Below, one piece after another: positions 15,463 to 45,375 of a DNA stretch of 64,000 nt. This DNA is from Parvularculaceae bacterium (GTDB lineage: Bacteria > Pseudomonadota > Alphaproteobacteria > Caulobacterales > Parvularculaceae): positions 171,840 to 235,839 of the forward strand of contig JAGRDS010000010.1 in assembly GCA_020446945.1 (NCBI GenBank). Direction: 5' to 3'. The translations under genes and the position numbers were made by a program. How positions within the stretch are numbered: position 1 is the first letter of the stretch; each line of letters opens with the position of its first letter. The notes beneath the pieces were generated by a model. That model saw only the letters and a program-made list of their open reading frames with translations, did not search any database and had not been told where the DNA came from.

Positions 15463-15501
15463 TCGCCAAGCCGTTTGACGCGCCGCGCTTTCCCTAAGAA
15501 A

Positions 15502-15525
15502 AGCGGGCCCCTTTCGGGGCCCGCT
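15502..15525. terminator. bidirectional rho-independent terminator
   Basis: A perfect 10-bp stem, AGCGGGCCCC paired with GGGGCCCGCT, encloses a TTTC loop. Read on the minus strand it is followed by TTTCTTA, and on the plus strand by CGTGTTT. It sits between the convergent M20 peptidase and S8 subtilase genes. Confidence 0.85.
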
Positions 15526-15551
15526 CGTGTTTCAGGGTCGAATTTCGACCC

Positions 15552-16913
15552 TTATTGCGTCGCCTTGTCGGCGCGCACCATGCCATGTCCGAATTCCTGA
15601 CGGCTGCCGATATTTTCGGCGCTTCGCGTCAGCAGAGCGCGCAATGCATTCGGCTTCATGCCCGGATTTTTCGCCTTGACGAGCGCGGCCACGCCGGAAA
15701 CGTGCGGCGTCGCCATCGACGTGCCGCCTTTCCAGCCCCAGCCGGGCGCGCAGCTGAACGTCGCCGCGCAAGCGGGGTCAGCGGCTACGGTCGTGCTGAG
15801 GATGAGATATTCAAACCAGTTGGCGGGGCGCCCGCTGTCGCAGGTGTCGATCTGCCCGCAATCGCCGCCAGGTCCGGCGATGCCGACCGGCGCGCCGTAG
15901 TTTGAATAAAACGCCCGGATGTCGAACGAGTTCGGGAACGGATAGCGAGGCGCCGGCTGAACGCCCGTCGCGCCCACATTCAGGATCTGCGGAATGTCGC
16001 CCGGCACATGAATGATGGTTCCGTTAAGGTCGAGCCCGCTATTGCCGGCTGACGCGACCATCAACGTGCCCTGTTTCGCAACGTAATTGGCGACACGCTT
16101 TTCAGCGGCGACATAGGTTGCGAGATCATTCGTGCCCTGACCGCCGAACTGGGCCGTCCCGCCAAGGCTCATCGAAATGACATCATAGCCCAGATCCGCC
16201 GCGTCGATCATCGCCGCCCAACGCGAGTCGGTGTAGGAGCAAACGCCGCAATCGGGGATCACCTCAAACGTATTGTAGGATGCGATTTTGGCGTCGGGCG
16301 CGACGCCGACGGCGCCGCCGCCGAAATTCGCCGCAGCCGTTCCCGCCGTGTGCGTACCGTGATCGCTATATTCCGGATACGGATTGCATCCGCCGATCGT
16401 AAAATCGCCGCCATCGGTCCCGGCCGAGGTGAAGCATCTCGCCGACACGACATTGCTGGCGAGATCCGGGTGGTTCCAAGCGACGCCGGTGTCGATGATC
16501 GCGACAGTTGCGCCGTCGCCGGTGTAACCGTTCGCCCATGCCTCCGGCGCGTGAACGCGGTCGATGCCCCACATCAGACCGGCGTCCGAAAACGCCGCGC
16601 CGCCCGCTTCGGGCGCCGCCGCATCCGTTGTCGCCGGCAATGTATCCGCTGCGCCGCCGCCGACTTTCGCTACGCCTGCAATGGCGCTTGCGTTGGCGAT
16701 GAATTGCGCATCGGCAGACGTTGCGATCGCAACGCCGACTTGGGGCAAGGTGCGCACAATCGCGCCGCCCGCCGCAGCGACATCCGCCTCCAGGCTGCTC
16801 GGAATCCGATTGTTCTTCATCAAGATGATGTAACGACCGTCATTCGCCATCGCCGATGCGCCAAGCGCAGCGACCGATACCGTTGTTGCGGCCAGGATTT
16901 TTCCTATTTTCAT
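15552..16913 (-). CDS. secreted S8 subtilisin-like serine protease
   Basis: A 453-residue subtilase with signal peptide MKIGKILAATTVSVAALGASAMA, a propeptide-like I9 region (about 25-85, GRYIILMKN), and a catalytic domain. The triad is D141 (AIIDTGVAW), H185 (YSDHGTHTAGT) and S399 (GGTSMATPHVSG); the oxyanion-hole Asn is in SAGNSG near 291. Several cysteine pairs (C221/C224, C352/C358, C382/C388) suggest disulfides in an exported protein. The ATG at 16913 follows GGAGGA by 6 bases; an in-frame upstream ATG at 17003 lacks support. It diverges from a protease-bearing autotransporter, so it could process that or other surface proteins. Confidence 0.9.
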   Translation of the reverse strand: MKIGKILAATTVSVAALGASAMANDGRYIILMKNNRIPSSLEADVAAAGGAIVRTLPQVGVAIATSADAQFIANASAIAGVAKVGGGAADTLPATTDAAAPEAGGAAFSDAGLMWGIDRVHAPEAWANGYTGDGATVAIIDTGVAWNHPDLASNVVSARCFTSAGTDGGDFTIGGCNPYPEYSDHGTHTAGTAAANFGGGAVGVAPDAKIASYNTFEVIPDCGVCSYTDSRWAAMIDAADLGYDVISMSLGGTAQFGGQGTNDLATYVAAEKRVANYVAKQGTLMVASAGNSGLDLNGTIIHVPGDIPQILNVGATGVQPAPRYPFPNSFDIRAFYSNYGAPVGIAGPGGDCGQIDTCDSGRPANWFEYLILSTTVAADPACAATFSCAPGWGWKGGTSMATPHVSGVAALVKAKNPGMKPNALRALLTRSAENIGSRQEFGHGMVRADKATQ

Positions 16914-16932
16914 GCAACGTCCTCCAATGTAA

Positions 16933-16948
16933 TTCACAGACCTGTGAA
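16933..16948. promoter_or_regulatory. inverted repeat in the S8 protease leader, candidate operator
   Basis: TTCACAG-AC-CTGTGAA is a perfect 7-bp inverted repeat ending 20 bases upstream of the protease start codon. The half-sites are in the reverse order of a CRP site (TCACA then TGTGA), so a CRP call is not supported. It could be an operator or an RNA hairpin just upstream of the ribosome site. Confidence 0.4.
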
Positions 16949-17089
16949 CGCTATCGAAAACAAAAAACGCCACAAGCGCTTGACTGAATTGCGCTAGAAT
17001 CATTCAAATTTGAAGTCCGAAACGGAGATTTGCTGCCAAGAATTCGTGCATTTGGTGTGCGTTGGAAAGGGATCAACCCTTTCCCGATG

Positions 17090-17262
17090 TGTCGGAATGC
17101 GGAAGCCGCGCGCGCCCTATCGCACGTCCGAGGCCGCTCGGCGGCGGCGGGCGCGCACAGGAATGAAGGCCTGCGCGCGGGATCGTTTTCTCGACATCGG
17201 CGCGATCATCTTTTTACCTTTCACTCTCGGCGTCATTTCCTGTTTGATCGATATGACCGTGT
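17090..17262 (-). pseudogene. degraded galU fragment
   Basis: The minus strand here reads DVEKTIPRAG and then a Gly-Leu-Gly-Arg-Ala-Ile segment, matching the intact GalU of this window (NVEKTIPRAGDLSYTRQ and GLGHAVW). After a frameshift the upstream part reads E-MTPRVKGKKMI, matching EATLKAKGKNDI. At the DNA level the shared block GCGCGCGGGATCGT-TTCTCGACAT aligns with galU around 21618-21645, and similarity continues on both sides. There is no start codon, and the frame is broken, with a stop at about 17075. It occupies the otherwise gene-free 520-base gap between the S8 protease and the autotransporter. Boundaries are approximate. Confidence 0.7.
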
Positions 17263-17434
17263 TTAAATGATTGCGCCCGGCTTTAGGAGGCGCAATTCAG
17301 GATGTTCCACTTAAGCAACTGAAAACAAATACTATTTTCGACCTGGACGCCGACACCTTAATATGTGGGCGGCGCTTGGGCGATTGGTTAATGCGTGGTA
17401 ACTATTTGGTGAGGCAACTAATGGGGAAGTTGGA

Positions 17435-20400
17435 ATGCCGAAATCAAACAGTAATGCATCCTTGTTCCGTAACCGCTTGAACGCCGGCGTATCAGGCGTC
17501 GCTCTCGCTCTTATCGTTTCTTCGATAGCAGGTCCGGCGAACGCACTGGTCGTTCGCGATGATGTCGGCGTCGACGGCGCCGTTGACACAACGAACATCT
17601 GGGGCGGCGTCGGCCAGATGTTCAATCGCCGCGACAATGGCGATGGAACCATCTCGACATTCCTATGCACCGGACAGCTAATCAATCCGCGTACGGTTGT
17701 TTTCGCGCAGCACTGCACATCCGGCGTGATGGATGAAGGATACGGACCCGGCCTGACCAACCATATGGGTTTCAGTTTCAATCCGACCGACACATTCACC
17801 GGATTTGACGATTGGCGGCGCGACGAGTTCGGCGTCATCAACGATCCATTGACGGGCGTATGGGAAAGCCTTCCCGATCAGGATTTCTATAACGTCCTTC
17901 AGGTGCAATCCGTATTCAACGTCGCGGAGCCGTTTCCGGGCGGCGATGTCGTGATGGCGTCATTCGATACGCCGGCGGCGGGCCTGCCGACTTACGGCAT
18001 GTTGTTTTCGCCGCTGACCGCGCCGACCCATGCGACCGTCGTCGGCTATGGAACGAACGGCGTCGGTTCAACCGGCGATATCGGCGGCATCGATTTCAAA
18101 CGCCGCGTCGGCGAAAACATGATTGACGGCCTTTTTTCGCAGAATGATTTCGTCGCCGGCGTCTTTAACGTTCCGGGCGCCGATTTTGCGGATCCATCGG
18201 CCGAACAGCTTTTATATCACGTCGATTTCGACCGGCCCGACCGGACGCCCGGCGATTGCGCGCGCGGCGAATTTTTCGGATTCGGCTTCGGCAACGATAT
18301 TGTCTGCAACACGCCTCCTTTCGCCGGTTTTCAGCCGCTGACCTGGGACAACACGTCGGCGATCCTGACAAATGACCAGATCGACTGGTACCCCGGCGAC
18401 GCGCTTCCAAATGAGGCCGGTACGGCGGGCGGCGATTCCGGTTCCGCGCTCTTCGCCGATCAGATCTATTCGCGCCCGCTTATCACCGGCGTGCTTTCCG
18501 GCGGCTGGGTCACGGGTTTCTTCGGCGTCAACGGCGGCTATGGCGATGTCAGCTATTATAATCCGTTGTTCCTGTTCCGCGACTGGCTCGTTCAGAACAA
18601 TCCGTATGTTTACGCCTCGGCGCGGCACGGAAACGGAAACTGGAGCGATCCGTCCCACTGGGTCCAGAATATGGATCCGAACTATTTCTATATCGACAAG
18701 TTCGGGCGGGTCCGTAACGGATTGCCCGCGCAGCCGGAGCCCGGCTATGGCGCGGACAGGCCGAAATTCGGAACCGTCTTCGATCTCGATATTCCAACTG
18801 ATGTGGAAGGCCAGACCGGGGCCGCGCCGGCGGCGCCCGCTGCGTCCGCGGCGAGCGGACTGGCAACCGCAAGCGATATCGGCGTTCTCGGCTCAGCGCC
18901 GCAGAGCTGGTCGGCGGGCGGACATTCGAGCTCGTCCGGCCCGACGGCGAGCGTCGGCGCGCCGACAGGTCCGGGCTCACGGAATTTCGTTCCGAACAAT
19001 GATTATGGAACTTACGGAACGTGGACATCATCGGCGGACGGCACAGCCCGCTTTTACGATGTGACGCTCAACAATTTCGGGCGCACGCGCGTCGATATGG
19101 ATGTCGAGATAGACAATCTGACCGTTTCCGGCTTCTTCTCGACGCTGGACGTGCTGGCGGGCAAAAATCTCAACGCCCTCATCGCCGTCGACCAGAACCG
19201 CGGATTCGTCAATGTCGATGGAACGGTGTCGGCGCGCGAATACATGCTTTGGGGCGGCGTCCTCACCGGCGATGGAACCATCAACACGCAGACGCTTTAC
19301 AACGTCAAGGGCGCAATGTCCGCCGGCGGCGTGCTTTCGACAGGCGAACTGACGATCAACGGCGACTACGTTCAATCGTCGCACGGAACGCTTTTGATCA
19401 ACATTCGCGGCGACCGGCGCGGCGTTTCGAATGATCATATTCAGGTCAATGGCGACGCCAGCCTCGCGGGCTATGCTTTGACGACGCTCAATAACGGCAG
19501 CAGGATCCTGCGCTGGCAGGATACGTTCAATGTATTGAGCGCCAACAATGTTATCGGCAATTTCGATCATGTGATTGTGCCGTCGCCGGTTCTTTACGGC
19601 GTAAGCACGGTAAATGGCGGCGAGGTCGACATTCAGATCAAGGCGCGCAGGATCGGTTCCCTGTTCGGGGCCGGCAGCTCGCTTTCCTCGCTTGGCTCCG
19701 CGCTTGATAAGATTAGGTGGGGCGGCGGCTATTCGTCTCTCTCCAATGTGTTCACGCTTGTCGACTCGTCATCATTCGACAACTTTGCGACAAGGCTGTT
19801 CAGCCTGACGCCGCAAAGCGCGTTTTCGCAAGCGGGTCTTGTGACGGGCTTTAACAACACATTCGTCCAGCACCTGACCGCTCGAAATGCGGAACTTCGC
19901 GCCGGCGTGCGCGGCGTATCCTACAGCGGCCTTCGCAGCGCATTCGCAAACGCCGAGCGTGCAAGCGGCGCGCCGATAGCCGCGTCTGGCGCAGACAACG
20001 CTTTCTCGCAGCACACGAGAGCCGCGCCGGAGGAAAATCGTCTTGGAATGTTCATTTCCTCTCGCGGTTTCTATAACGCGGATACGCATTCGTTGACGGC
20101 CGGGGCATTTCAGAACCTGTCGCGTCTCGATCCGATGCTGCCTTCGGCGTCTTACGATCCCATAATCGGCGACACGACGAATTACGGCGATCTGACAATC
20201 GGCGCGGATTATCGTTTGACCGATACGATGGCGGTCGGCGTTTCAATGTCGACGACGAAATTCGACCTGGCTTCGAATGCGGCGTCGCCGCTCTCCAGCA
20301 GCAGCGTCGGCCTGTCCGCCTATGCGACCAAATATGGCAGGAACTGGTATGTCGACGGCTATTACAGCGTGTCGCAGCACGAATTCACTGCGGCTCGTTC

Positions 20401-20962
20401 GACGCTGGACATCGCCGAGGAACTCTCGCCCTTTGAGCGGTTCAACGGCGCACAGGCCCAAAGCGCGCCATCCGCCCGCCAAACGCTGGCCGGCGTGCGC
20501 TCCGGCTATACGTTTGAGCCGCTAAAGGGCCTCCTGATCGGGCCGATGGCGAGCCTGATCTACTCGAACACGGAGTTTGGTTCGTATACTGAAAACGGCG
20601 CAGGCCAGTTCGACCTGATCGTCGGCGAACGCAATCTGACGTCAATCGCAACGTCGGCGGGCGCGAGCATTCAATACAATCACGTGACGAGCCGCGGAAA
20701 GCTGATCAGCGCGTTCAGCGAATTTTCCGTCTCGCACGAATTGGGCGATACGAGAGAAGTTATTCCGGCGGCGTTCGCGCTGGCGCCGGATGCCCAGTTC
20801 GAAATCGACCGCTTGCTTGATCCGACATGGTACTCGGCGTCCGCCGGGTTGACGTTCGCCGCAAGCGACAAGCTTTCGACGTCCGTCGTCGTCGGCGCGG
20901 ATCTGGATCGCGGCCCGCTCAGCCAGTACTATACGAGCATGCGGTTCAATTTCCGGTTCTGA
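17435..20962 (+). CDS. autotransporter with N-terminal trypsin-like (S1) protease domain
   Basis: A 1175-residue type V secretion protein. A signal peptide ends near ANA at residue 38. A chymotrypsin-fold domain (about 45-400) has a plausible triad of H93 (VFAQHC), D171 (FPGGDVVMASFD) and S336 (GTAGGDSGSALF), with cysteine pairs C78/C94 and C275/C291. A GNWSDPSHW element (about 405) starts the autotransporter passenger, followed by an Ala/Ser linker and beta-helix repeats with GVLTGDGTIN and GVLSTGELTINGDYVQ. The last 290 residues are a beta-barrel ending MRFNFRF, with a terminal Phe for BAM recognition. The usual TAAHC is replaced by FAQHC. The promoter is not obvious; a strong terminator follows. 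Confidence 0.9.
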   Translation: MPKSNSNASLFRNRLNAGVSGVALALIVSSIAGPANALVVRDDVGVDGAVDTTNIWGGVGQMFNRRDNGDGTISTFLCTGQLINPRTVVFAQHCTSGVMDEGYGPGLTNHMGFSFNPTDTFTGFDDWRRDEFGVINDPLTGVWESLPDQDFYNVLQVQSVFNVAEPFPGGDVVMASFDTPAAGLPTYGMLFSPLTAPTHATVVGYGTNGVGSTGDIGGIDFKRRVGENMIDGLFSQNDFVAGVFNVPGADFADPSAEQLLYHVDFDRPDRTPGDCARGEFFGFGFGNDIVCNTPPFAGFQPLTWDNTSAILTNDQIDWYPGDALPNEAGTAGGDSGSALFADQIYSRPLITGVLSGGWVTGFFGVNGGYGDVSYYNPLFLFRDWLVQNNPYVYASARHGNGNWSDPSHWVQNMDPNYFYIDKFGRVRNGLPAQPEPGYGADRPKFGTVFDLDIPTDVEGQTGAAPAAPAASAASGLATASDIGVLGSAPQSWSAGGHSSSSGPTASVGAPTGPGSRNFVPNNDYGTYGTWTSSADGTARFYDVTLNNFGRTRVDMDVEIDNLTVSGFFSTLDVLAGKNLNALIAVDQNRGFVNVDGTVSAREYMLWGGVLTGDGTINTQTLYNVKGAMSAGGVLSTGELTINGDYVQSSHGTLLINIRGDRRGVSNDHIQVNGDASLAGYALTTLNNGSRILRWQDTFNVLSANNVIGNFDHVIVPSPVLYGVSTVNGGEVDIQIKARRIGSLFGAGSSLSSLGSALDKIRWGGGYSSLSNVFTLVDSSSFDNFATRLFSLTPQSAFSQAGLVTGFNNTFVQHLTARNAELRAGVRGVSYSGLRSAFANAERASGAPIAASGADNAFSQHTRAAPEENRLGMFISSRGFYNADTHSLTAGAFQNLSRLDPMLPSASYDPIIGDTTNYGDLTIGADYRLTDTMAVGVSMSTTKFDLASNAASPLSSSSVGLSAYATKYGRNWYVDGYYSVSQHEFTAARSTLDIAEELSPFERFNGAQAQSAPSARQTLAGVRSGYTFEPLKGLLIGPMASLIYSNTEFGSYTENGAGQFDLIVGERNLTSIATSAGASIQYNHVTSRGKLISAFSEFSVSHELGDTREVIPAAFALAPDAQFEIDRLLDPTWYSASAGLTFAASDKLSTSVVVGADLDRGPLSQYYTSMRFNFRF

Positions 20963-20988
20963 TGTCCCGCGCTCTAGCGCGTAAATAA

Positions 20989-21018
20989 AAAAAGGCGGGG
21001 CCAGAGCCCCGCCTTTTT
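20989..21018. terminator. strong bidirectional rho-independent terminator
   Basis: AAAAAGGCGGGGC at 20989-21001 pairs perfectly with GCCCCGCCTTTTT at 21006-21018 around a CAGA loop, giving a 13-bp stem with U-tracts in both directions. It separates the convergent autotransporter and galU genes. Confidence 0.95.
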
Positions 21019-21045
21019 AATTTGCCGGCCCCGCGGATCGCCGGC

Positions 21046-21915
21046 CTAGAGGCGCGCGCGGATATAGTCCGCGAGGGCGGCGCCGAATTCGTCGTTTTTT
21101 ATGCCGAGATCGGCATTCGCCTGGAGCCAGCCGAGTTTCGATCCGCAATCGTGAATGACGCCTTCGCAAATGCAGGCGTGAAACGTCTGCCGCGCATTCA
21201 GCTTGTTCATGGAATCGGTTAGCTGAATTTCCCCGCCGGCGCCTTTTTCCTGCGTTTCAAGCAGCGGGAAAATATCCGGTTGCAGGATGTAGCGCCCGAT
21301 AATGCGAAAGTTCGACGGCGCGTCTTCCGGCTTCGGCTTTTCGACCATGCCGGTCATTTCAATCAGATTTTCCTTGCGCGCTTTGGGTGCGATGACGCCG
21401 TATTTGGACGTGTCTTTCTGCGGCACTTCTTCGACCGCTACGAGATTGCCGCCGACGTTTTCATAGGCGTCGACCATCTGCCGCAAAAATCCCGGCCTGT
21501 GCGGCACGATTTCATCGGGAAGCGAAACCGCGAACGGTTCATCGCCGATTATCGCGCGCGCGCACCATACCGCGTGCCCAAGACCGAGCGGGGCCTGCTG
21601 GCGCGTATAGGAAAGATCGCCCGCGCGCGGGATCGTCTTCTCGACATTGGCGAGAATATCGTTTTTCCCTTTCGCTTTCAGCGTCGCTTCCAGTTCGAAG
21701 GCGTGATCGAAATAATCCTCGATCGCCGATTTGCCGCGCCCGGTGACCAGAATAACATGCTCGATCCCCGCATCGCGCGCTTCCGACACGACGTAATCAA
21801 TCAACGGACGGTCGACGACAGGCAGAAGTTCCTTCGGAATGGATTTTGTCGCAGGCAATACGCGCGTGCCGAGGCCGGCGACGGGAATAACGACTTTTTT
21901 GACTGGCTTTGGCAT
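21046..21915 (-). CDS. galU: UTP--glucose-1-phosphate uridylyltransferase
   Basis: A 289-residue nucleotidyltransferase that makes UDP-glucose from UTP and glucose-1-phosphate for envelope polysaccharides. The signature GLGTRVLPATKSIPKELLPV at about 14-33 holds the nucleotide-binding loop. VEKTIPRAGDLSYTRQ, LGLGHAVWCAR and the ILVTGRGK segment are all typical of bacterial GalU, and the length is normal. It starts at ATG 21915, 14 bases after the stop of the DUF3089 gene upstream, so these two are probably cotranscribed. A degraded second galU-like fragment lies about 4 kb away. Confidence 0.95.
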   Translation of the reverse strand: MPKPVKKVVIPVAGLGTRVLPATKSIPKELLPVVDRPLIDYVVSEARDAGIEHVILVTGRGKSAIEDYFDHAFELEATLKAKGKNDILANVEKTIPRAGDLSYTRQQAPLGLGHAVWCARAIIGDEPFAVSLPDEIVPHRPGFLRQMVDAYENVGGNLVAVEEVPQKDTSKYGVIAPKARKENLIEMTGMVEKPKPEDAPSNFRIIGRYILQPDIFPLLETQEKGAGGEIQLTDSMNKLNARQTFHACICEGVIHDCGSKLGWLQANADLGIKNDEFGAALADYIRARL

Positions 21916-21929
21916 TTCGCTCCACTCGT

Positions 21930-23114
21930 TCAGTTCGGAACCTTGTTGATCGGGCTGGCGCCGAGATCGATTGTTTCGCCGATAGGCGCAAGCGGTACGG
22001 GCTCGACTTTCAACCGTTCGTTCAACGCTTTAAGGCGCAATCCTGCGTTTTCGGCGAGATCATAGTAAAAAAGGTTAAAGGGCTGCGATTTCCATTTATC
22101 GCCGAACCAGTCGCCGCGCCGCAAAATGCGCCGTTTGGGCGTATCGACGACAAGAACGCCGTTCGCGCAGCGCGCCCCGACCGCGCGGGCGATCGGCGGC
22201 GGCATTGCGCCATAGGCGATGCCTGTCGCAGACGCCGCGCCGATATTGTTTGCGGCGGGCGCGTAGTCGCCGCCGCGCCGCCAGGTGAGCGGGTTGACGC
22301 AGACCAGATCGGAGCTCGTGAAGGAGCGAAGCTCCCCGGCCGCGTTCCAGGCGAGCGAGCGGTCGCGTATGCGCTCCATCTCCTCGTCGAAACGTGGCTC
22401 GTAATCGACATAGGAAACGAGACAGCGCACCGCATCCGCCGCGTCGCATACGGGAAGCGGCGGATTGAGACCGTTGAGAAATTCGCCGGGCGTCGATGCG
22501 CCGATCACATAGGCGGCGACGAGGTGTCGGCGAAGCGGATTGAACTCGCCCTGAAAATATTCGTTGAGAAGGCCAAGAACATGAAGACCGCCCTGGCCGT
22601 AGCCGACGAGAATGATCGGACTGGCCGCATCGCGCGTTTCAAGGAACGCCCGGAAGGCGCGGCTGACATCGTCATAGGCGAGGCGGCGCGCGGCGAGGCC
22701 GTCATATTTATGCGTGAAAAGGGAATAAAGCGTCGCTTCGCGGTAGCGCGGCCCGTATACATTGGCGACGCCGAGAAATGGCCCCGCCTCGTTCGGCGCT
22801 GCGATCTTGCGCCGGACCTCTTCGGATTTGCGATCGTTGATCGGCGCATTCCACGCCTTGCCGCGGTAATAGGTCGTTGAATGAACGTAAAATGCGTCCG
22901 CCGGCGATTTGCGCGATCCGTCCGGCCATAAAAGCCAGGCGCCGCGGGCCGCATATTCGGGTTGAGGCGGCGGCGTTACGGTCTGGAAGGGCGCACGGGG
23001 CGTTGCGAAAAACCGGAAAATCCCGTTCTGGAATACGACCACCGAGGCGATGAACAGAACGGCGAGGAGGCCGGCCGCGCCGTATCCCGCCCGTTTCCAC
23101 GTCAAAAAAGCCAT
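21930..23114 (-). CDS. DUF3089 family protein lacking the usual nucleophile serine
   Basis: A 394-residue membrane-anchored protein. One helix at about 7-28 (KRAGYGAAGLLAVLFIASVV) precedes a DUF3089 alpha/beta-hydrolase-like domain with FYVHSTTYY, GPFLGVANVYGPRYREATLY and YDDVSRAFRAFLE. The nucleophile elbow, normally GHSQG in this family, reads GYGQG here, so glycine replaces the serine. The rest of the domain seems intact. Either catalysis has been lost or the protein has another role. I chose ATG 23114 because the membrane helix begins there; an ATG at 23165 is also in frame. It lies just upstream of galU. Confidence 0.75.
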   Translation of the reverse strand: MAFLTWKRAGYGAAGLLAVLFIASVVVFQNGIFRFFATPRAPFQTVTPPPQPEYAARGAWLLWPDGSRKSPADAFYVHSTTYYRGKAWNAPINDRKSEEVRRKIAAPNEAGPFLGVANVYGPRYREATLYSLFTHKYDGLAARRLAYDDVSRAFRAFLETRDAASPIILVGYGQGGLHVLGLLNEYFQGEFNPLRRHLVAAYVIGASTPGEFLNGLNPPLPVCDAADAVRCLVSYVDYEPRFDEEMERIRDRSLAWNAAGELRSFTSSDLVCVNPLTWRRGGDYAPAANNIGAASATGIAYGAMPPPIARAVGARCANGVLVVDTPKRRILRRGDWFGDKWKSQPFNLFYYDLAENAGLRLKALNERLKVEPVPLAPIGETIDLGASPINKVPN

Positions 23115-24090: not shown

Positions 24091-26172
24091 CTATCCGGCG
24101 CGCAACAGCCTGATCGCGTTATCGCGGCTGAACAGGTAAAGCAGCGTTCTCAACGCTTCGCCGCGCGGCGTTTTCAGCTCGGGATCTTTTCCGACGATCA
24201 GCGCGGCGTCGTCGCGCGCGGCGAGCAGCAATTCGCCGTGTGCGGCGTAATCGGCGAACAAGAGATTCGGAAAACCAGATTGCGCCGCGCCAAGCAGGTC
24301 GCCCGCGCCGCGCAGGCGCAAATCTTCTTCGGCGATCTTGAAGCCGTCCTGCGTCTGCCGAAGGATTTTAAGGCGCGCCGCAGCGGTCTCGCCGAGCGGT
24401 CCCTTGTAAAGGAGAAGGCAAGAAGCCGCCTTGTCGCCGCGTCCGACGCGCCCGCGAAGCTGGTGAAGTTGCGCAAGGCCGAAACGCTCGGCGTGTTCTA
24501 TCGCCATAACGACGGCGTTCGGCGCATTGACGCCGACCTCGATCACCGTTGTCGCGATCAGGAGGGACAGCGCGCCTTTGTGGAAACGCTCCATGACGGC
24601 GTCTTTTTCCGCCGCCGGCATTTTACCGTGTACGAGCCCGACCTTGTCTCCGAATACGCTATGAAGATGGCGATAGCGTTCTTCAGCCGCTGTCAGATCG
24701 AGCTGATCGGATTCTTCAACGAGCGGGCAAACCCAGTAGACCTGGTCGCCGCGTTTGATAACGCGGGAGACGGCGCCGATAACTTCGTCGATGCGCTCTA
24801 CGGGGATAGCGCGCGTATCGACGGGTTTGCGTCCCGGCGGTTTCTCGCGGATCGCGCTCGCGTCCATGTCTCCGTAAGCCGTCAGCGCCAGCGTTCGCGG
24901 GATCGGCGTCGCCGTCATGACGAGAAGATCGGCGCGCCAGCCCTTGGCGGTGAGCGCCGCGCGCTGCTGGACGCCGAAGCGGTGCTGTTCGTCGATGATG
25001 ACGAGGCCGAGATCCTTAAACGCGACATCTTCCTGGATAAGCGCGTGCGTGCCGATGAGCAGGTTGATTTCGCCGGCTTTAAGGCGCGCCAGCTTTTCGG
25101 TTCGCGCCGCGCCCTTGTCGCGGCCGGTGAGCACTTCGACCGCTACGCCCGACTTTTCCGCGATCGGCGCCAGCGTTTCCAGATGCTGGCGCGCGAGAAT
25201 TTCGGTCGGCGCCAGCAGCGCGGTTTGCGCGCCGGCTTCTATTACGAGCGTTGCGGAAAGAAAGGCGACGACGGTTTTTCCCGAACCGACATCACCCTGT
25301 ATGAGGCGCACCATGCGATCTTCCGCAGCGAGATCGGCTTCTATCTCCTTCAGCGCAGCGTCCTGCGCGCGCGTCAGCGTGAACGGAAGCGCTTGCAGCG
25401 CTTTTGCTTTCAATGCGCCGCGCGCCTTGAACGGTCTTCCCGCAGACTTCTTGCGCGACCTGCGGATGAGCGCGAGCGCTAACTGGTTCGACAGGAGTTC
25501 ATCATAGGCGAGGCGCAAAAGGGCGGGCGCGGACGGTGATAAATCCGCTGACGATTGCGGCGTGTGCAAACGCTCCAGCGCATCGTTGAAGGATGGAAAT
25601 CCGTTCTTTTCAAGCCACGCCGCATCCTGCCATTCGTCGAGCCTCGGCGTGCGCGAAAGGGCGCCCTGAACCGCCTTGCGCATGACGGAGGCGGGCAATC
25701 CCGCCGTCAGCGGATAAACAGGTTCGAACAGCGCGAGCGCGCCGTTCTCAGCCGGATCGACGATGTGGTCGGGATGCGTCATCTGGCGCGCGCCGCCATA
25801 TTCTTCAACGCGCCCGGAAATTATGCGCGTCGATCCTTCCGGCAGGGCCCGCGCAAGGTAGTCTGCGCGCGCATGGAAAAAAACGAGCGTGATAAAGCCC
25901 GTCTCGTCCGAACAGATAACCTTGTAAGGCGCGCGTTTTACAGGCGCGGGATGATGCTTGTCGACGCGAACTTCCATCGTCGCGATCGCGCCCGGCGCGG
26001 CGTCGGCGATTTTCGGCCGGCTGCTGCGATCTATAAGGGCGTGCGGGCGTGTGAAAAGCACGTTTACGACGCGCGGGCCGGCCGCCTTTTGAACGAGTGC
26101 GGCGAGGCGCGGCCCGACGCCTTTCAGCGCGGTGACGTCGGCGAAAAGAGGGTTGAGAACTTCCGGACGCAT
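24091..26172 (-). CDS. recG: ATP-dependent DNA helicase RecG
   Basis: A 693-residue superfamily 2 helicase that rescues stalled replication forks and remodels Holliday junctions. An N-terminal wedge/OB domain (about 1-200, with GVGPRLAAL) is followed by helicase motifs: Walker A GDVGSGKTVVA, the DExx box IIDEQHRFGVQQR, TATPIPRTL, ATTVIEVGVNAPN and QLRGRVGRG. Length and motif order are normal for RecG. It is divergent from sdhE with a 59-base gap, an arrangement common in alphaproteobacteria. Confidence 0.97.
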   Translation of the reverse strand: MRPEVLNPLFADVTALKGVGPRLAALVQKAAGPRVVNVLFTRPHALIDRSSRPKIADAAPGAIATMEVRVDKHHPAPVKRAPYKVICSDETGFITLVFFHARADYLARALPEGSTRIISGRVEEYGGARQMTHPDHIVDPAENGALALFEPVYPLTAGLPASVMRKAVQGALSRTPRLDEWQDAAWLEKNGFPSFNDALERLHTPQSSADLSPSAPALLRLAYDELLSNQLALALIRRSRKKSAGRPFKARGALKAKALQALPFTLTRAQDAALKEIEADLAAEDRMVRLIQGDVGSGKTVVAFLSATLVIEAGAQTALLAPTEILARQHLETLAPIAEKSGVAVEVLTGRDKGAARTEKLARLKAGEINLLIGTHALIQEDVAFKDLGLVIIDEQHRFGVQQRAALTAKGWRADLLVMTATPIPRTLALTAYGDMDASAIREKPPGRKPVDTRAIPVERIDEVIGAVSRVIKRGDQVYWVCPLVEESDQLDLTAAEERYRHLHSVFGDKVGLVHGKMPAAEKDAVMERFHKGALSLLIATTVIEVGVNAPNAVVMAIEHAERFGLAQLHQLRGRVGRGDKAASCLLLYKGPLGETAAARLKILRQTQDGFKIAEEDLRLRGAGDLLGAAQSGFPNLLFADYAAHGELLLAARDDAALIVGKDPELKTPRGEALRTLLYLFSRDNAIRLLRAG

Positions 26173-26678: not shown

Positions 26679-29600
26679 ATGACGCTCGTTTCCGGCGTTC
26701 AGAAAATATCCGGCGAAGAAGGCTGGACATCGAAGGCCAGCTTTCCCGTTTATGACGCGCCTGACGGCGCCGACGCGATGGCGCTTGCGCAAGCTGCGAA
26801 AACGCGCGGCGGCCTCATCGTATACATAGCGCGCGATGGCGCGCGCGCCGCCGATATGATGAGCGCGCTCCAGTTCTTCGCACCGGAAGTCGCCCGGATT
26901 GACTATCCGGCCTGGGATTGCCTTCCCTATGACCGCGTTTCGCCCTCGGCTGCGGTTTCGGCGTTGCGCATGGCCGCGCTCAGCGTTCTCGCGCGGCGCG
27001 AGGAGCAATCCCCGCTAATTCTCGTGACGACGATCAATGCCGCGACGCAGAGAACGCCGCCGAAAAGCCTTGTCGAAAAATCAGCGTTTCGCGCGCGCCC
27101 CGGCGAAAGCGTTTCGATGGACGCGCTTGTCGCCTATCTCGTATCGAACGGTTACGCGCGCGCATCGACCGTTCGCGAGGCTGGCGAATTCGCCGTGCGC
27201 GGCGGGCTTGTCGATCTTTTTGCGCCCGGCGGCGAGGAGCCGATACGTCTCGATTTTTTCGGCGACAGCCTAGAATCGATCCGCGCCTTCGATCCCGTTA
27301 CGCAGATGACGACGCGCCAGCTTGTCGAGGTCGATCTCTCGGCCGCGACGGAAGCGTTGCTGACCGAGGAGACGATTGCGCGATTTCGCGCCGCATTTCG
27401 CGCCGAGTTCGGCGCGGCGAGCGACGATCCCGTTTACGCCGCCGTCAGCGAGGGCCGCAAACATGCGGGCATGGAACACTGGTTGGCGCTTTTCTACGAG
27501 ACTATGGACACGCTGTTCGATTTCGCGCCGGACGCGCTGTTCGTTCTCGAACATCTCGCCGATGAAGCCTCGACGGACCGCTTCGCCGCCATCGACGATT
27601 ATTACAATGCGCGCGCGGAAGATCTCGCCGCGCCGCGGCCGAAAAATTCCGAATTCGCCGCGCCGTCCTATCGCCCGCTTAAAGCCTCATTGATGTATCT
27701 GCCGGCGGATGAATGGGCCGAAAGGCTCGCCGCCGTTCCCGTAAGGCGGCTGACGCCTTTTTCTCCGCCCGACGAAAAGCGCGCCTTTTCTTTCGGCGCC
27801 AGGATCGGGCGCACGTTCGCGGCCGAACGCGCGGCGGAAAAGGTGAACGTATTCGACGCGCTCGGCGCGCATATCGACGATCTCGCAAGCGAAAACCGGC
27901 GCGTGTTCATCGCCTGCTGGACGGACGGGTCCGCAGATCGCATGCGCGCGGTTCTCGACGAACATGGCATGTCCGATGTTGCGCATTTTTACGACTGGCG
28001 GGCGGCGGTCGGCGCGAAAGGGCGCGTGGCGACGATCCTGCTCGGGCTTGAAACGGGCTTCGTCACGGCGGACGCCGCATTCATTTCGGAACAGGATATT
28101 CTCGGCGACCGGCTCGTGCGGCGCGGCCGGCGCAAGCGCGCCGAGAACTTTCTCACCGAGGCGTCGAGCCTTCTCGTCGGCGATCTCGTCGTTCATGTCG
28201 ATCACGGCGTTGCGCGCTATGCGGGTCTGAAAACGCTGGACGTGCAGGGCGCGCCGCATGACTGCCTGCAACTTGAATATGCGGGCGGCGACAAGCTGTT
28301 TTTGCCGGTTGAAAATATCGATCTCCTGTCGCGTTTCGGTTCGGACGATCCGAACGCGCAGCTTGACCGGCTCGGCGGCGCCGGCTGGCAGAACCGCAAG
28401 GCGCGCATCAAGGCGCGCGTCAGGATGCTCGCCGAGCAGCTGATCGCGATTGCGGCCAGGCGCGAAATGAAAACGACCGACAGCGTTTCGCCGGCGACCG
28501 GCGCCTATGACGAATTTTGTTCGCGTTTCGCCTACGCCGAAACAGAGGACCAGGAAAATGCGATCGCCGATGTTATCGAGGATCTGGCGCGCGGGCGCCC
28601 GATGGACCGGCTCATTTGCGGCGATGTCGGGTTCGGCAAGACTGAGGTCGCGCTGCGCGCCGCATTCGTCGTCGCGATGACGGGGCGCCAGGTTGCGGTC
28701 ATCACGCCGACTACCCTGCTTGCGCGCCAGCACCTGAAGAATTTCACTGAACGCTTCAAGGGCTTTCCGTTGAATATCGGCGGTTTGTCGCGGCTCGTCA
28801 GCGCCGGCGACGCCTCGAAAGTGAAAGCCGGTCTCGCCGACGGCTCGATCGATATTGTCGTCGGCACGCACGCCCTGCTTTCAAAGACGATCAGGTTCCG
28901 CGATATCGGCATGGTCATCGTCGATGAGGAACAGCATTTCGGCGTCAAACATAAGGAGCGCCTGAAGGAATTCCGCGCCGATACGCACGTGTTGACGCTG
29001 ACGGCGACGCCGATCCCGCGAACGCTTCAACTGGCGATGAGCGGCATTCGCGATTTGTCGCTTATCGCGACGCCGCCGATAGACCGCCTCGCCGTGAGAA
29101 CGACCGTCGGCCCGTTCGATCCCGTCGTCACGCGCGAGATGATCCTTCGCGAGCATTATCGCGGCGGGCAGAGCTTTTACGTCGCGCCGCGTATCGCCGA
29201 TCTTGACGGGATCGCGGAATTCCTGACCGAAAGCGTTCCGGAAGTTCGCTTCAAGATTGCGCACGGCCAGATGGCCGGCGGCGAGCTTGAAGATATCATG
29301 AACGCCTTTTACGACGGCAAGTTCGATATTCTCGTTTCGACGACGATCGTTGAATCCGGCCTTGATATTCCGACTGCGAACACGCTCATCATCCACCATG
29401 CCGATCGCTTCGGTCTCGCCCAGCTGTACCAGTTGCGCGGGCGCGTCGGGCGATCAAAACTCCGCGCCTATGCGTATCTGACGACTTCGCCGCGCAAAAC
29501 GCTGACGCCGGCGGCGGAACGCCGGCTGAAAGTCATGCAATCCCTCGATACGCTCGGCGCCGGGTTCACGCTGGCGAGCCACGATCTTGATATTCGCGGC

Positions 29601-43103: not shown

Positions 43104-43180
43104 AGTGACCCATCCCGATGGTTGTTGCAGCGATCAACAGCGCCGTTTTGCGGCGGAGCGCAACCGGCGGCGTGAAAGTT

Positions 43181-43411
43181 CTAGATTGTCGGGCGGCCGA
43201 TCCGTTCAAGCGTGTTGAAGGAATCGATCAGCTTGCGGCCAGCAGGCGTCGGCAAGCCGTTCTTGTCCAGCCAGCGATGGGCGATCGCCGCTTCGAGCAG
43301 GCGATCATTGTTTTCGACGCCGTCGAGCTGGCGCACGAATTTAAGGATGTTCCTGGCGATAACGTCGTCGGTCACGCGGCCCTCTCTTGAACGATCAAAC
43401 CAGCCAATCAC
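43181..43411 (-). CDS. small hypothetical protein
   Basis: A 76-residue basic protein (MIGWFDRSREG to LERIGRPTI) with no signal peptide or membrane helix. The middle (VIARNILKFVRQLDGVENND, then LLEAAIAHRWLDKNG) looks helical. I do not recognise it. It lies 77 bases upstream of the DUF2156 gene on the same strand. Its codon use looks like its neighbours, which supports it as a real gene, but a chance frame cannot be excluded. Confidence 0.5.
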   Translation of the reverse strand: MIGWFDRSREGRVTDDVIARNILKFVRQLDGVENNDRLLEAAIAHRWLDKNGLPTPAGRKLIDSFNTLERIGRPTI

Positions 43412-43635
43412 ATAGCATTGGCCGAAATGGCTAGTTTTTTTCGTCTAAATGGTACGCCTACGCTGAAATACGACTTTGGCGATTACACACCCGATTTTCG
43501 AATCTGGCAAGAGAGCCTGAAGCGCCGGCGCCGGCCGAATGGGGCGTTGAAACGTCGCGCCCCCTGTAAACGCCCGTGGAACGTGATAAATGGCCGCAAA
43601 TTCCTCGAAATCCCTTGAAAAACGACGGTGCGCTC

Positions 43636-44946: not shown

Positions 44947-45024
44947 GCCCGGCGCCCCAAGGCTGGCCGTAGGCGGAGACTCAGGCGACGATCCGTGCGC
45001 GATACGCGGATCGAGGGGCTTTCT

Positions 45025-45261
45025 ATGGTCAGGATTGTCGCATTCTGGGGCGGATTATGCCTTCTGGCGCTTGTCGGCGCCTATTTCGCCACAAGCATCA
45101 TCGTGTGCGCCGGTGCGATCGGGGGAAATATCGCCCAATGCGCGAAATCGACCGCCGCGTCGGTTTTGCAATCGCCCGCCGCCATAATGGGGTTGTGCCT
45201 GTCGCTGCTTGCAATCCAGTATTCGGTTCACCGGCGCAATCCGCAGCGCTTTATCCGTTAG
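45025..45261 (+). CDS. small membrane protein
   Basis: A 78-residue protein with two predicted helices (VRIVAFWGGLCLLALVGAYF and AAIMGLCLSLLAIQYSV) separated by a short loop containing two cysteines. It ends with the basic HRRNPQRFIR. ATG 45025 follows GAGGGG by 7 bases; an in-frame ATG lies 10 codons further upstream. No family is recognised. It lies between the aminotransferase and the hybrid kinase on the same strand. Confidence 0.6.
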   Translation: MVRIVAFWGGLCLLALVGAYFATSIIVCAGAIGGNIAQCAKSTAASVLQSPAAIMGLCLSLLAIQYSVHRRNPQRFIR

Positions 45262-45375
45262 CGGATCGTTTCGCGAAAAGACGGCTAACGCCGGATTAAC
45301 AAGCATTGAAAATTTGCTGCGTATCCTTGCACACCCGCGTTCATTTTAAACCGGAGTTTACGATCGAATGCAAAA

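Follow-up and report, generated by a model that had tools for sequence, protein, structure and literature searches.

A degraded, minus-strand piece of galU lies between two protease genes in a Parvularculaceae genome, and we judge, with a probability of about 0.88, that it is a dead fragment, a partial copy of the resident galU made in this lineage that decayed without selection. The relic is a real and ordinary pseudogene fragment, so far seen in no other genome. It is of little importance as a gene remnant; its one use is as the scar of a DNA rearrangement downstream of galU, where gene content varies among related Parvularculaceae. The features referred to below lie in the window, that is, the whole 64,000-nucleotide stretch of DNA that was analysed.

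15552..16913 (ORF start up to 17003), minus strand: S8 subtilase gene, bordering the gap opposite the autotransporter (ORF; Pfam Peptidase_S8, E 1.3e-44)
17107..17247, minus strand: galU relic, partial and frameshifted, codons about 73-120 (alignment, shuffles, tree)
17248..17281, minus strand: possible extra galU-like stretch after an 8-base gap (lenient alignment; anchored extension within shuffles)
17435..20962, plus strand: autotransporter gene, 1175 aa, with a trypsin-like N-terminal part, adjoining the relic (Pfam Autotransporter, E 1.1e-35; Trypsin, E 3.8e-4)
21046..21915, minus strand: intact galU of 289 aa, from which the relic presumably derives (ORF; Pfam NTP_transferase, E 8.5e-25)

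A fragment of galU in the intergenic gap

The initial annotation had pointed to a frame-broken, minus-strand segment of galU in this gap, and sequence comparisons bore this out. The relic matched positions 21557-21698 of the intact gene, on the same strand, with 108 of 142 columns identical (76%) and one gap (blastn E 4e-25 against the galU region, 1.2e-21 against the whole genome and, when the window was compared with itself, about 2e-21; of the three non-trivial matches in that comparison, this one far outranked the others). The local alignment scored 110, whereas 1000 dinucleotide-preserving shuffles averaged 21.1 and never exceeded 29, so that the observation survives the shuffled-sequence check that had been named beforehand as its possible refutation. 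At the protein level, tblastn of intact GalU against 16914-17434 produced one significant match, in frame -3 and covering residues 86-120 (20 of 35 identical, E 4e-8), and the peptide DVEKTIPRAG, already read from this gap, was recovered inside it as ADVEKTIPRAG. The span first proposed, 17090-17262, does contain the relic, although its secure limits are narrower, at 17107-17247.

The intact gene is the single full-length galU match in its genome, and in a search of the whole genome the relic matched this gene and, apart from it, the gap itself alone. We take the product of 21046-21915 to be GalU, Pfam assigning it to the wider NTP_transferase family only. The gap had also been described as the only gene-free one over 400 bp, which did not hold: with ORFs of at least 100 aa, chosen greedily, the window contains four such gaps between ORFs (1314-1739, 17004-17434, 43104-43575 and 44947-45375), inside which shorter genes could lie. 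No repeats were reported inside the gap with the relic.

What is recognisable in the relic is limited to GalU residues about 73-120. Three scoring schemes were used for alignments anchored at the ends of this core; two retrieved no further galU and the third remained within the shuffle range, indicating that the relic covers about one sixth of galU. A lenient alignment past the core paired TGATCGATATGA with TGATCGAAATAA after the 8-base gap; the pairing is not significant, and the stretch at 17248-17281 may be a real continuation of galU. An unanchored extension of the right flank, obtained with one scheme, was rejected: its score was reached by 8 of 300 shuffles, and the match, at 22027-22041, lies outside galU and out of register. 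Within the core, a one-base gap near window position 17210 shifts the frame, and a stop is met in each of the three frames. Homology to a parent gene, a broken or truncated frame and loss of codon-level constraint (see below), by which pseudogene fragments are recognised, were all found.

The relic groups with the resident galU

Identities and trees were calculated for the resident galU, the relic and the galU genes of 16 relatives, mostly the nearest among many fetched; the nearest genes come from Parvularculaceae, Marinicaulis, Parvularcula and unclassified Alphaproteobacteria. The relic was 75.9% identical to the resident galU and 70.9, 70.2 and 66.0% identical to those of relatives G001, G008 and G007, respectively. 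IQ-TREE, with 18 rows, placed the resident galU and the relic in one clade (support 95/84), with branches of 0.029 and 0.30, respectively, and FastTree grouped the two with a support of 0.91. Trees representing an older duplication were worse than the best tree but not rejected, with p-AU 0.16 for the relic outside the resident gene plus G001, and p-AU 0.096 for the relic outside the resident gene plus G001, G008 and G007, in an analysis that rests on 141 bases and a long relic branch. At the four sites where the resident galU differs from G008, G001 and G007 alike, the relic agrees with the resident gene at two and with the sister sequences at two. This would fit a copying event within the lineage of this genome that preceded the last changes in its galU, although four sites decide little.

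The relic changed without coding constraint

Mismatches between the relic and the resident galU are spread over codon positions 1, 2 and 3 as 11/14/9 (11/14/8 in the pairwise alignment), whereas over the same stretch the resident galU differs from those of G008, G001 and G007 by 5/1/15, 2/2/15 and 4/2/22, respectively (Fisher p for the relic pattern against each pair, 0.0019, 0.0004 and 0.00009). When changes were polarised with G008 and G001, 23 of 25 mapped to the relic and the other 2 to the resident galU. Judged by these substitutions, the relic has decayed without coding constraint from soon after it was copied. The even distribution over codon positions, together with the 23 changes against 2, argues against an initial period in which the paralogue was a functional gene.

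galU loci of relatives and the proposed lost paralogue

DNA from the gap matched 5 of the 40 relatives searched, within galU itself in four of them and as a 41-base match elsewhere in the fifth (G006). We found no second galU of comparable strength near galU in 41 loci, which, with six contigs represented twice, amount to about 35 distinct places; the sole second galU-like DNA around galU in this set was a 26-base match (L076, E 0.001). G002, G003 and G020, whose assemblies consist of 230 to 470 contigs, yielded no near-identical galU (best E 1.2e-5, 3.3e-7 and 3.2e-7), and G031 yielded only pieces of the gene. None of the genomes searched proved to be a close strain showing an intermediate state.

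The one relative fetched with both flanks, an M20 peptidase gene and galU, is G008, which contains neither the autotransporter nor the relic between them. The initial annotation had suggested checking whether sister genomes carry a full galU paralogue at this place, and G008 has the same flanks without one. It carries instead a 158-aa ORF and a 744-aa ORF, the latter presumably subtilase-like, which show no match to the S8 gene or the autotransporter of the window. What lies between the M20 gene and galU (15463-21045) thus differs between G008 and the genome studied here. In the other loci fetched from the same genus, where ORFs were read for G001 and G007, no window protein from the left of galU had a counterpart next to galU that passed the cut-off. 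The site downstream of galU looks variable within the genus. The titles and abstract openings covered by a literature search held nothing on this locus.

These comparisons weigh on the lost paralogue that the initial annotation had offered as one option, taken here as a full-length second galU that would have functioned under selection and later been lost through deletion and frameshift. The relic has the orientation of galU and lies within an intergenic gap, and an older duplication is compatible with the tree tests (p-AU 0.096). However, a functional period would leave an excess of third-position changes, which is missing, the gap shows no galU beyond 142 bp, and none of the relatives examined has a comparable second galU, which makes such a history improbable.

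Distribution of the flanking protease genes

The autotransporter gene is patchily distributed: it occurs in 5 of 62 genomes of the family, including that studied here, which is the only carrier among nine genomes of the genus. The S8 gene occurs in 4 of the 62, again including this one. Seven loci were fetched around relatives of the two genes, four of them autotransporter loci, and none contained galU. The genome studied here gave no autotransporter match besides the gene itself. Among 72,556 plasmid records, two matched the autotransporter, both partially and at less than 35% identity, and a genome contig collection gave 11 pattern matches, none confirmed as a relative.

Such patchiness would suit an arrival of the relic in foreign DNA, as a piece of another species' galU that hitch-hiked with the autotransporter. 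We consider this still less probable than a lost paralogue: the best match of the gap DNA is the resident galU, with 100 bits as compared with 67.1 for G008 and 64.4 for G001, the tree puts the relic with that same gene, and the four autotransporter loci lack galU.

Proposed origin of the relic

The grouping with the resident galU, the 23 of 25 changes on the relic branch and the even codon positions together point to a partial copy of the resident gene rather than a lost working paralogue. A rearrangement of the DNA downstream of galU probably gave rise to the copy. A piece of galU, 142 bp or longer (codons about 73-120), would have been copied, in direct orientation, to about 4 kb downstream of the galU 3' end. 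It could be what is left of a single-crossover integration or tandem duplication in which the autotransporter came to lie between two galU copies or, alternatively, a short template-switch copy made during rearrangement. The piece would never have been a working gene, or would have lost its function at once, and would then have accumulated substitutions spread evenly over codon positions and a one-base frameshift. Nothing is recognisable beyond the core that would show the mechanism or the original length of the copying event.

What was observed is the homology with its orientation and partial extent, the frameshift, the closeness to the resident galU, the unconstrained pattern of change and the lack of a counterpart in the relatives examined; the copying itself, and any connection to the autotransporter, are inferred. 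The initial annotation had offered, as its other option, a duplication carrying the autotransporter that was followed by decay. Duplication and decay are supported by the 75.9% identity, the 95/84 clade and the 23 changes against 2, whereas carriage of the autotransporter by the same event is only possible, its relatives in the family lying away from galU and its own genome having given no second match.

The relic resembles a pseudogene from a partial (truncated) duplication in being a partial copy with a frameshift, no codon-position bias and an intact parent nearby; the sole difference is that it sits between protease genes, both of patchy distribution. Single-crossover (Campbell-type) integration and tandem duplication leave direct repeats around the inserted stretch, and here galU sequences in the same orientation lie on either side of the autotransporter. 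Unlike in that model, only 142 bp of the left copy are present, and no intact repeat or donor was found.

There is very little to recommend the idea that the relic was co-opted and retained as RNA, with an autotransporter leader running through it, antisense to galU mRNA and dampening galU, such that expression of the surface protease would lower UDP-glucose synthesis: the relic plus strand is 76% complementary to galU mRNA, and the predicted duplex reaches -203.7 kcal/mol as compared with a mean of -107 in 100 mononucleotide shuffles, but pairing of this energy is expected from homology alone, a simple scan detected no sigma-70-like promoter in 16850-17500, and the relic changes far faster than galU. 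A similarly simple scan for non-coding RNA families (Rfam) found none in the gap; five matches, all below gathering scores, were all located between the autotransporter and galU.

Other features of the window

No tRNA genes were found in the window. Between the convergent autotransporter and galU genes, an inverted repeat rich in G+C, with runs of A and T on its flanks, occupies positions 20985-21025 and by eye looks like a shared two-way terminator; the sub-threshold Rfam matches cluster at this site. Finally, a 28-base identical match on opposite strands (28999-29026 and 24890-24917) connects two helicase-like genes, which we take to be RecG-like and Mfd-like, and is likely a shared helicase motif.
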